From assembly GCA_016873715.1 (NCBI GenBank), contig VGWF01000031.1, positions 1 through 38,227 of the forward strand: DNA of 38,227 nt. The letters run 5' to 3'. This DNA comes from Lentisphaerota bacterium. Lineage in GTDB: Bacteria > Verrucomicrobiota > Kiritimatiellia > PWTM01. Shown piece by piece: positions 35,395 to 38,227 of the stretch. The notes beneath the pieces were generated by a model. The model saw only the letters and a program-made list of their open reading frames with translations. It made no database searches and was not told where the DNA came from. Within the stretch, counting starts at the first letter, position 1. Every line of letters starts with the position of its first letter. Both the position numbers and the translations under genes were made by a program.

Positions 35395-35602
35395 GCGCTC
35401 GCCTCCGCCGCGGGACCGTCCGCCCCGCGCCCCGCCAGTATGTCCGAACGCCCGCGCCCCGCCATGGCCCAGACTGGCCGCCGCATGCCGAAAATTGACT
35501 TCGCGGACGAGGGGCGGGGAAAGTGTCGGGTGGCCAGTGGCGAGTGTCGGGGCGGAGGAAGGCAACGGCGCGGTCGATTGATCCCCGACAGCTTCCTCCT
35601 TC

Positions 35603-35731
35603 TCTTTCAGGTTTCAGGTTTCCTCCCTCATCCCTTCCCCGTTGGTTGTTGTATCCGCACTTCGGTGTTCGATGTTGGATGTTCGATGTTCGGTGTTCTC
35701 CGAAAGGGTCGGGGGTCGAGGGGCGAGGGGG
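35603..35731. repeat. Spacer direct repeat, copy 1
   Basis: Starts tctttcaggtttcagg, contains ccctcatcccttcc, gttggttgttg, tatccgcacttcgg, then heptamers ggtgttc gatgttg gatgttc gatgttc ggtgttc (35664-35698), and ends in a G-rich ggggcgaggggg tract. Copy 2 at 35771 is nearly identical, with small indels. Confidence 0.8.
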
Positions 35732-35770
35732 AAGGACGAGGGACGAGGGTCGAGGGACGAGGGGGCGTCT

Positions 35771-35908
35771 TCTTTCAGGTTTCAGGTTTCCGCCCTCATC
35801 CCTTCCTCGTTGGTTGTTGGCCGTTGTATCCGCACTTCGGTGTTCGATGTTGGATGTTCGGTGTTCGGTGTTCTCCGGAAGGGGCGAGGGTCGAGGGGCG
35901 AGGGGGGG
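35771..35908. repeat. Spacer direct repeat, copy 2
   Basis: Second copy of the block at 35603, with an extra gccgttg heptamer near 35818 and heptamers ggtgttc gatgttg gatgttc ggtgttc ggtgttc at 35839-35873. Confidence 0.8.
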
Positions 35909-36009
35909 GGAGTGTCGGGTGGCAAGTGGCGAGTGTCGGGCTTTTGCGCCAACGAGCAAGCCACAACAGGCCCGGACCGGGCCCTGGGCACCCCGCACGC
36001 CCCGGCCCG

Positions 36010-36033
36010 GGATATGCGACGCGTCGCATATCC
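36010..36033. repeat. 24-bp perfect palindrome, GGATATGCGACG plus its reverse complement
   Basis: Twelve bases followed directly by their exact reverse complement, no spacer. It lies at the edge between the repeat-rich spacer and the lower-GC cassette region. It could be a recombinase, partition or regulator site, or an unusual cruciform. No gene overlaps. Confidence 0.85.
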
Positions 36034-36297
36034 TCGTAATGGAGGGGTTTTGCGCCACGATCCGACTCAGGCCAATCTCAACCCCAACCGCAGTCTCCAC
36101 CAAGCCGGCGCTTGCGGCGAGCCCGCCAACCCTCTGGCGCGCAGCGCGAAACCTCAATCAAGAAGCCGCTTGAATCTCTCCGTCGGCAGGCGCAGCATCG
36201 TCTGCAAGATGAACGGATGGAGGACCGAGAAACCACGCCGGAGAGGTGCCGACCCGAGAAATGCGACTGGTCGTAGAATACACGTTCGCCGAGAAGG

Positions 36298-36720
36298 ATG
36301 ATGATGGAATATCGCTTTGCGACAGTCAGTGATCTTGACCGCCTCGCGGAGTGGAATCACCAACTCATCCGTGATGAAGGTCACAGGAACGCCATGACGG
36401 TGCCAGAACTGCGAGAGAGAATGCGTGCATGGATCAGTGGCGAGTACAAAGCCGTGATCTTCGGTCCGGAGGTTGACCCGGTCGCGTATGCTCTATTCAA
36501 GGAGACCGCGGCGGAGGTCTACCTCAGGCAACTGTTCGTGAGACGAGACAGGAGAAGTGAGGGAATTGGCCGGAAGTCCGTCGATATCCTGCGTGAACGA
36601 GTGTGGCCGCGGCAGAAGAGGTTGACGGTCGAGGTCCTGACGGCCAACACTCGGGCCGTGCGCTTCTGGCGCACTATTGGGTACAAGGACTACTCCCTCA
36701 CGCTGGAGATCATGCCATAA
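36298..36720 (+). CDS. GNAT-family N-acetyltransferase (first cassette gene)
   Basis: 140 aa. EYRFATVSDLDRLAEWNHQLIRDEGH is a GNAT opening. VAYALFKETAAEVYLRQLFVRRDRRSEGIGRKSVDILRERVW (about 60-102) contains motif A with R-x-x-G-I-G-R for acetyl-CoA binding, and VEVLTANTRAVRFWRTIGYKDYSL is motif B. Three consecutive ATGs (36298, 36301, 36304) follow GAGAAGG, and the third has the best spacing. Substrate unknown. GC is clearly lower than in the rest of the window, and the gene is followed within one nucleotide of the stop by an attC-like site, as expected for an integron cassette. Confidence 0.88.
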   Translation: MMMEYRFATVSDLDRLAEWNHQLIRDEGHRNAMTVPELRERMRAWISGEYKAVIFGPEVDPVAYALFKETAAEVYLRQLFVRRDRRSEGIGRKSVDILRERVWPRQKRLTVEVLTANTRAVRFWRTIGYKDYSLTLEIMP

Positions 36721-36797
36721 AGAACCGGCGAACCATGAGGTTCACCGTATTCCTCACCCGCGGCGGGTTCGGAATCCGGTGACCTCCGACGTTGGGC
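36719..36797 (+). repeat. attC-like site 1 (integron recombination site)
   Basis: It ends in the core GTTGGGC (36791-36797). The fold pairs GAGGT with ACCTC and CACCGTATTCCTCACCCGC with GCGGGTTCGGAATCCGGTG, leaving unpaired bases as in attC hairpins. The left core is degenerate (AAAGAAC). The apical segment is almost identical to that of site 2. Confidence 0.75.
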
Positions 36798-36806
36798 TTA
36801 AGACAG

Positions 36807-37391
36807 ATGACCAGGACACCTCCAAATTCAATTGAACCAAAGACTCGCCGAGCATGGAGAGCTTGGCTCCAGAAGAATTCAGACAGGGACAGGGGGTTGT
36901 GGCTAATCACGTACAAGAAGGCGTCTGGAAAACAGCAATTGACATTCGAACAGGCGGCGGAAGAGGCTCTGTGTTTCGGGTGGATCGACAGCAAGCCTGC
37001 CAAGTTGGATGATGAACGTTCCATGCTTTGGTTCGCACCGCGTAAAGCAGGCACAGGTTGGTCCGCGCTCAACAAGAAACGCGTTGCTCAAATGATCGCC
37101 CAAGGGCACATGACCCCAGCCGGACTAGCGAAAATAGAAACGGCAAAGCAGGACGGATCGTGGACACAGTTGGATGCGGTAGAACGTCTTGATATTCCCA
37201 CGGATCTGGCCGAGGCGATGGTTCGTTACCCCGAGTCGAGGCGCAATTTCGAGGCATTTCCGAGATCGGTGAAGCGCGGGATACTGGAATGGATTGTGAA
37301 GGCCAAGCGACCAGAAACACGAAGAGGCAGAGTTGAGGAGACGGCGGAATTGGCGATGAAGAATCTACGAGCCAATCAGTGGAGACAATGA
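36807..37391 (+). CDS. YdeI/OmpD-associated family protein (DUF1905/BOF-type)
   Basis: 194 aa from ATG 36807 (the upstream TTG at 36792 is part of the attC core). SIEPKTRRAWRAWLQKNSDRDRGLWLITYKKASGKQQLTFEQAAEEALCFGWIDSKPAKLDDERSMLWFAPRKAGTGWSALNKKRVAQMIAQGHMTPAGLAKIETAKQDGSW is the conserved YdeI-like region (EAL(C/R)FGWID and KR...L). The C-terminal half has the usual AFPRSVKRGILEWIVKAKRPETRRGRVEETAELA segment. The family is named for bacteriocin/antimicrobial-peptide resistance links, but its molecular role is poorly known. Common as a cassette cargo; both flanks are attC-like. Confidence 0.88.
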   Translation: MTRTPPNSIEPKTRRAWRAWLQKNSDRDRGLWLITYKKASGKQQLTFEQAAEEALCFGWIDSKPAKLDDERSMLWFAPRKAGTGWSALNKKRVAQMIAQGHMTPAGLAKIETAKQDGSWTQLDAVERLDIPTDLAEAMVRYPESRRNFEAFPRSVKRGILEWIVKAKRPETRRGRVEETAELAMKNLRANQWRQ

Positions 37392-37393
37392 AA

Positions 37394-37464
37394 GCCCAAC
37401 CATCGCCTCCACCGTATTCCTCACCCGCAGCGGGTTCGGAATCCGGTGAGGCGTGACGTTAGGC
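37394..37464 (+). repeat. attC-like site 2
   Basis: 71 bp with canonical cores GCCCAAC (37394-37400) and GTTAGGC (37458-37464). Stem GCCTC/GAGGC continues into CACCGTATTCCTCACCCGC / GCGGGTTCGGAATCCGGTG. Relative to site 1 the outer stem differs on both arms so pairing is preserved. Confidence 0.85.
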
Positions 37465-37482
37465 CAACGAAAGGGATAGTAA

Positions 37483-38082
37483 ATGGAATCCTTCTCAATG
37501 CTCGTATCGATTGTTTTCATGGTGCTCTTCATCCCGCTGCTTGCCGTCCAGCAGCGGCATGGCCATCTTGACTATGGCGTTTACGCGCATCTGCAGATTC
37601 CTGTGATCATCTGTGTTCTTTTCGGCGTCTGCTGGTGGCTGCACAAGAAGGCGTCGAAAGCGTCCCTGTATTTCGTCCTTGTTCCGCTCGCCTACGTCGT
37701 TTCCACCGCCACAACGAACATAGTCGGCGAGAGGTGTCTCCAGGTAGATCACTCCAAGGATTTGCCCATCAGACAACGGCTCGTGGACTACAGCCCCCCA
37801 AACACACCGCCTACCAAGTCGCAGATTCTGGTTGATCTCGGTCAGCCTTTGGGCGACGCCATTCTCGCATCTACGAACGTCAATGTGCCCGAAGAGGTGA
37901 TGGTAAGCGTACGCTACGCCCCGGCAAGGTCAGAAGTTCTCGTCTACGAGGAAACGGCTCGTAACGGCCTGCATTTTACGTATTTCATCTTCATCGATCC
38001 CAACACGGGCAGAAAAGGGTTCCACGTAGAGGTGCCGGGCATCTTGAGAGAGGACCAATGGCCAAGGCAGGCGCTACGTTGA
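37483..38082 (+). CDS. Membrane-anchored protein of unknown function (third cassette gene)
   Basis: 199 aa. Three hydrophobic segments at the N-terminus: MLVSIVFMVLFIPLLAV (6-22), IPVIICVLFGVCWWL (about 39-53) and SLYFVLVPLAYVVSTATTNIVG (about 60-81). The rest is soluble (QILVDLGQPLGDAILASTNVNVPEEVMVSVRYAPARSEVLVYEETARNGLHFTYFIFIDPNTGRKGFHVEVPG), with a glycine-poor beta-rich look. No family recognised. Typical cassette-style orphan gene, flanked by attC-like sites. Confidence 0.75.
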   Translation: MESFSMLVSIVFMVLFIPLLAVQQRHGHLDYGVYAHLQIPVIICVLFGVCWWLHKKASKASLYFVLVPLAYVVSTATTNIVGERCLQVDHSKDLPIRQRLVDYSPPNTPPTKSQILVDLGQPLGDAILASTNVNVPEEVMVSVRYAPARSEVLVYEETARNGLHFTYFIFIDPNTGRKGFHVEVPGILREDQWPRQALR

Positions 38083-38104
38083 TGCTCTGTTCAGAAGACT
38101 GAAG

Positions 38105-38165
38105 GCCTAACAACCGGCGGCACCATACGTCGCTAACGCGCCGCTGGTGCGCCGTGACGTCAGGC
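38105..38165 (+). repeat. attC-like site 3 (different loop sequence)
   Basis: 61 bp with cores GCCTAAC (38105-38111) and GTCAGGC (38159-38165, one mismatch to GTTRRRY). Arms CGGCGGCACCA and TGGTGCGCCG pair imperfectly around a short loop. Its interior differs from sites 1 and 2. Confidence 0.75.
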
Positions 38166-38209
38166 GTCGCTCGCGCATCCATGGAACTCAAGAGCAAACA
38201 GCACCAGGA

Positions 38210-38227
38210 ATGAAAGCCAAACCCCCC
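38210..38227 (+). CDS. Possible start of a fourth cassette gene, cut by the window end
   Basis: ATGAAAGCCAAACCCCCC begins 44 nt after site 3 and is preceded by CCAGGA. Only six codons are visible, so nothing can be said about the product. A separate short frame, MELKSKQHQE, begins at 38181. Confidence 0.3.

Follow-up and report, generated by a model that had tools for sequence, protein, structure and literature searches.

An integron cassette array on a repeated attI-like flank whose integrase gene has probably been lost

In integrons the integrase gene, intI, lies 5′ of the cassettes. Arrays of at least two attC sites with no neighbouring intI are known as CALINs, and the candidate origins of integrase-less arrays are decayed integrons, chance insertions and assembly splits. 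In the sections of the sources drawn on here, CALINs are proposed to be degraded integrons (PMC9024848) and are considered open to mobilisation in trans (PMC12444791), and attG sites are reported as points of cassette entry into genomes (Loot et al. 2024, via PMC12901181).

The window analysed here, a stretch of 38,227 nucleotides, is the entire length of contig C31 in an assembly of 5.13 Mb (289 contigs, 97.6% complete). It very probably ends in an integron cassette array starting at an attI-like site whose integrase gene is gone. The array of the window is a CALIN seated on an attI-like platform, rather than an integron running towards an integrase, and the genome is an unusually clear case of such platforms copied away from the integrase.

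The cassette array and its attC sites

The array (36284–38165) consists of three cassettes on the forward strand, each a small open reading frame with an attC site behind it. The gene of cassette 1 (36298–36720) encodes a GNAT acetyltransferase of 140 residues (PF00583, 31 bits, above the cut-off) and is followed by attC site 1 (36727–36797; R″ GGCGAAC, R′ GTTGGGC). Cassette 2 contains an ORF for a YdeI/OmdA-like protein (36807–37391; PF13376, 60.9 bits), the longest reading of which begins with TTG at 36792, and ends in site 2 (37394–37464; R″ GCCCAAC, R′ GTTAGGC). The ORF of cassette 3 (37483–38082) encodes a 199-residue protein with a hydrophobic N-terminal half and no match in Pfam or NCBIfam; it is followed by the weaker site 3 (38105–38165; R″ GCCTAAC, R′ GTCAGGC). 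The start of a fourth cassette (38159–38227), the sequence after R′ of site 3, is cut by the contig end. Much of this layout had been proposed in a first-pass annotation. The cores, order and orientation that it gave agree with the sequence and ORFs, the array does run off the right end, and the lower local GC is real (0.54–0.58 against about 0.71). Its three cassettes also stand, with a different left boundary, as cassette 1 begins at 36284 and not at 36298; at site 1 it had identified R′ correctly and missed the R″ box at 36727.

All three sites have the complementary R″/R′ and L″/L′ boxes and the AAC and GTT cores of attC, with GTC in place of GTT at site 3. Compared with shuffled sequences, their bottom-strand DNA folds give z scores of -2.4, -5.3 and -3.5 (sites 1, 2 and 3). 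A first covariance model, built from nine candidate attC sites of the genome aligned by their arms and including those of the window, scores them at 40.8, 47.0 and 38.1 bits. A second model was trained on other contigs only, with the window left out. With this held-out model site 1 scores 34.1 bits and site 2 33.9 bits (E about 1e-6), and no further match is found across the 38 kb; the model misses site 3, so that the predicted covariance-model hits hold for two sites independently and for the third only with the model that includes it. The models also pick up sites, absent from the training set, in the vicinity of intI in related genomes. Infernal with its filters off gave low, truncated scores even at good attC sites and these were discarded; an Rfam scan of the window returned no families at threshold.

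The complementary change noted between the outer arms of sites 1 and 2 (GAGGT/ACCTC versus GCCTC/GAGGC) is real. Across the nine attC sites of the genome, two-sided changes occur in 9/9 L-arm pairs, and 88.9% of cells pair compared with 23–38% when the partner is slid, a count biased towards structure by the placing of the arms by hand. Site 3, already described as different, is the weakest of the three and rests on its fold together with the complementarity, at 7/7 positions, of the ends of cassette 3 (GTTAGGC..GCCTAAC).

Before insertion a cassette is a circle, and its first seven bases are expected to be complementary to its own R″ box. This complementarity is 7/7 in all three window cassettes. 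Among 13 cassettes of the genome, for which a few R″ boxes were chosen by eye, the two ends of a cassette agree at 46 of the 52 variable positions (permutation P <= 1e-5). The start of cassette 1 was placed at 36284 because the seven bases there, GTTCGCC, exactly complement the R″ box at 36727 in the same cassette. Together with the held-out model and the covariation, these ends confirm the first-pass reading of a probable integron cassette array with structurally conserved attC sites. Homogeneity of the attC set, which it named as a feature of sedentary chromosomal integrons, does not extend across the genome, where short arrays with diverse attC are found, those reaching contig ends being possibly longer than seen. 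The assembly is a draft and its attC coverage is partial: of 3,375 candidates in a genome-wide search 150 were scored, and a known site on contig C54, detected by the covariance model, was missed. An exploratory fold-based attC finder proved too permissive and was used solely for picking candidates.

The repeated 5′ flank and the integrase genes

Just outside the interval of the first-pass annotation, which thereby omitted the most notable feature of the window, lies a repeated attI-like 5′ flank (35920–36283, best conserved over 36160–36283), here termed platform type B. It ends at the core GTTCGCC (36284–36290), where the crossover would fall at G^TT. A stretch of 370 bp with this core at its right end has an 84% identical counterpart at C121, and shorter stretches of it are present at C15, C54 and C32. 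A sequence model (R1) of the shared 131 bp finds exactly five copies, in the window and on these four contigs (E <= 5e-28); the next match, at 22 bits, is without the core. In each of the five copies the similarity reaches the G of GTT and then ends: mean pairwise identity, 0.84–0.91 over the final 30 bases, has dropped to 0.21 by 30 bases downstream. Cassettes begin at the G^TT core in 5/5 copies, TAGAAT stands just before it in each, and behind each is a different cassette or cassette set. The chromosomal neighbours of the five copies also differ. No convincing match to the platform model was found in 57 relatives, and scanning named genomes with a pattern for the platform core gave no match. 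In a promoter scan of the platform no sigma-70-like promoter passed, and no cassette promoter is claimed. Probe matches at C7:762 and C43:152 were rejected as attC sites or platforms. On C188 an attC-bearing array (L109, 1471–1412, minus strand) has no recognisable platform of either sequence type in front.

The outer part of the flank contains a perfect 24-bp palindrome, GGATATGCGACGCGTCGCATATCC (window 36010–36033), which recurs at C15. Low-complexity intergenic repeats of the GAGGGGCGAGG and TTCGATGTTCGATG types lie beside several platforms (window 35500–35960, C121, C32, C41 and C200), and might be mediators of copying.

A single intI in the genome exceeds the curated cut-off; it lies on C200, scores 421 bits, is free of stops and is accompanied by an attI and two attC sites. 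This gene (L007, 3955–5451, minus strand) encodes an intact integrase of about 500 residues with some 190 extra N-terminal residues, and Pfam matches its SAM-like core-binding domain in two stretches. The relatives L110–L112 match over nearly the full length. Kiritimatiellae metagenome assemblies are among the close named relatives of the integrase, and the organism itself most likely falls within this class. Partial TIGR02249 matches on C155 and C74 fall short of the cut-off and were rejected, that on C155 being XerC/D-like by eye. The C200 attI (type A) recurs once, at C41, with about 91% identity; beside this copy is a truncated, stop-containing 5′ part of a C200-type intI, followed by cassettes of its own. 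The truncated gene abuts a low-complexity repeat. With the five type B copies, these two sites bring the attI-like sites dispersed through the genome to at least seven.

Types A and B have little sequence in common. At C54 a heavily deleted intI relic adjoins the type B copy and reads divergently, as does intI from attI. Still present in it are the GGKGDKDR box, the IntI-specific RRH region and the C-terminal tail, and its best match is the integrase of genome G013, not that of C200. As the relic reads away in this manner, the type B platform is most simply interpreted, from sequence, as an attI whose integrase was lost. No intI remains were seen at the other four type B copies. A further attC-like site on C54 (L044, 6074–6141, minus strand; 23.5 bits with model R3) follows a DUF2330 gene and probably closes cassette 3 of the array there.

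Contig C31 carries no intI, as first annotated, and so does not show the complete-integron arrangement of intI beside attI and divergent from the cassettes. The further expectation of an integrase beyond 38227 is unsupported, since intI belongs 5′ of the cassettes and the 5′ side of this array, left of 36284, is within the window, has no intI and passes into ordinary chromosome.

Origin and present state of the platforms

The platform copies would have arisen by duplication of an integron attI region followed by decay of intI, and cassettes would have entered them by IntI-catalysed attI x attC recombination at GTT. Counting against this reading are the small size and heavy deletion of the C54 relic, the lack of intI remains at the other four type B copies and the limited likeness between type B and the C200 attI. 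A parallel comes from G049, a genome of another family of the class, in which contig C12 carries a copy, 80% identical, of the attI region belonging to the C16 integron. The copy stops precisely at GTT, and behind it comes a run of attC-like sites in one orientation, of which three score above 23 bits and several are weaker. The array lies in the middle of a 127-kb contig, and none of the four intI genes of G049 is on C12. At its start the orphan attI copy (L152, 8397–9075) lies within the 3′ end of an ORF that, judged by eye, resembles a portion of a squalene-hopene cyclase, and the two look fused. G029 and G051 showed no additional attI copies, and the arrangement is therefore not general in the class.

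Whether the platforms are still in use divides the next two readings. The first keeps the history just outlined and removes present activity: a second integron type was duplicated, all of its integrases died, and the platforms and cassettes are frozen and used by no living integrase. The chance that this is so is close to even. It agrees with the C54 relic being closer to the G013 integrase than to that of C200, with the sequence difference between types A and B, and with the altered cores GTC (window site 3) and CCCCAAG (C32). Given these three observations, fossil arrays appear at least as likely as live ones on the evidence of sequence. Against this first reading, most cassettes retain complementary ends and open reading frames, and attC sequences that are almost the same accompany different genes on C31 and C121, as expected of one cassette pool. 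The second reading, which may be put forward tentatively, is a distributed integron in which one chromosomal integrase supplies cassettes, in trans, to seven or more attI-like platforms spread over the chromosome, which fall into two sequence types and bear small exchangeable arrays.

An origin at attG sites would make the flank an ordinary genomic repeat that was never an attI, its GTT serving as a secondary target. Cassette entry at attG is known, at least from the part of PMC12901181 cited, and the outer part of the flank does occur at C215 without cassettes. This explanation is nevertheless unlikely: all five core-bearing copies hold cassettes and none is empty, an intI relic adjoins one of them in the orientation expected of attI, and the other platform type, which is certainly the attI of an intI, has been copied likewise. 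That the window array is a piece of the single C200 integron, cut off from it where repetitive attC DNA broke the contigs, is highly improbable, for while C31, C15 and C200 do end within arrays and such splits are common in draft assemblies according to the section of PMC9024848 drawn on, five different chromosomal flanks precede the arrays on their start side, not their end side, and at C121 and C32 chromosome is found on both sides.

Comparison with described systems

A multicopy attI-like start with a relic beside one copy is direct sequence evidence for platform copying with integrase loss, a combination that occurs in two families of Kiritimatiellae. Should the surviving integrase act on the platforms, the functional unit of the integron would be a genome-wide set of docking sites and not one locus. 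A literature search, with most subscription journals outside its coverage, found no description of dispersed attI copies of this kind.

The genome resembles those with sedentary chromosomal integrons in the chromosomal location of its arrays, the mostly unknown functions of its cassettes and the intact intI-attI-array on C200. It differs in having several short, separate arrays with diverse attC, whereas a sedentary chromosomal integron has homogeneous attC in one long array beside intI. In common with insertions at attG, cassettes are found at chromosomal places away from intI; attG sites, however, are reported to diverge from attI and attC, whereas here a shared flank of at least 131 bp precedes the core at five loci. 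The CALINs of Xanthomonas outside the ilvD locus are similar in that one genome holds several integrase-less arrays, and differ in that the portion of PMC12444791 consulted describes no common attI-like flank. Finally, the window array has at least two attC sites and no neighbouring intI, as do CALINs in general; its right side is beyond the contig, and intI would be expected on the left. In the cited parts of PMC9024848 and PMC12444791, however, CALINs are defined by attC alone, whereas the window array starts at a multicopy attI-like sequence with the relic of an integrase gene beside one of its copies.
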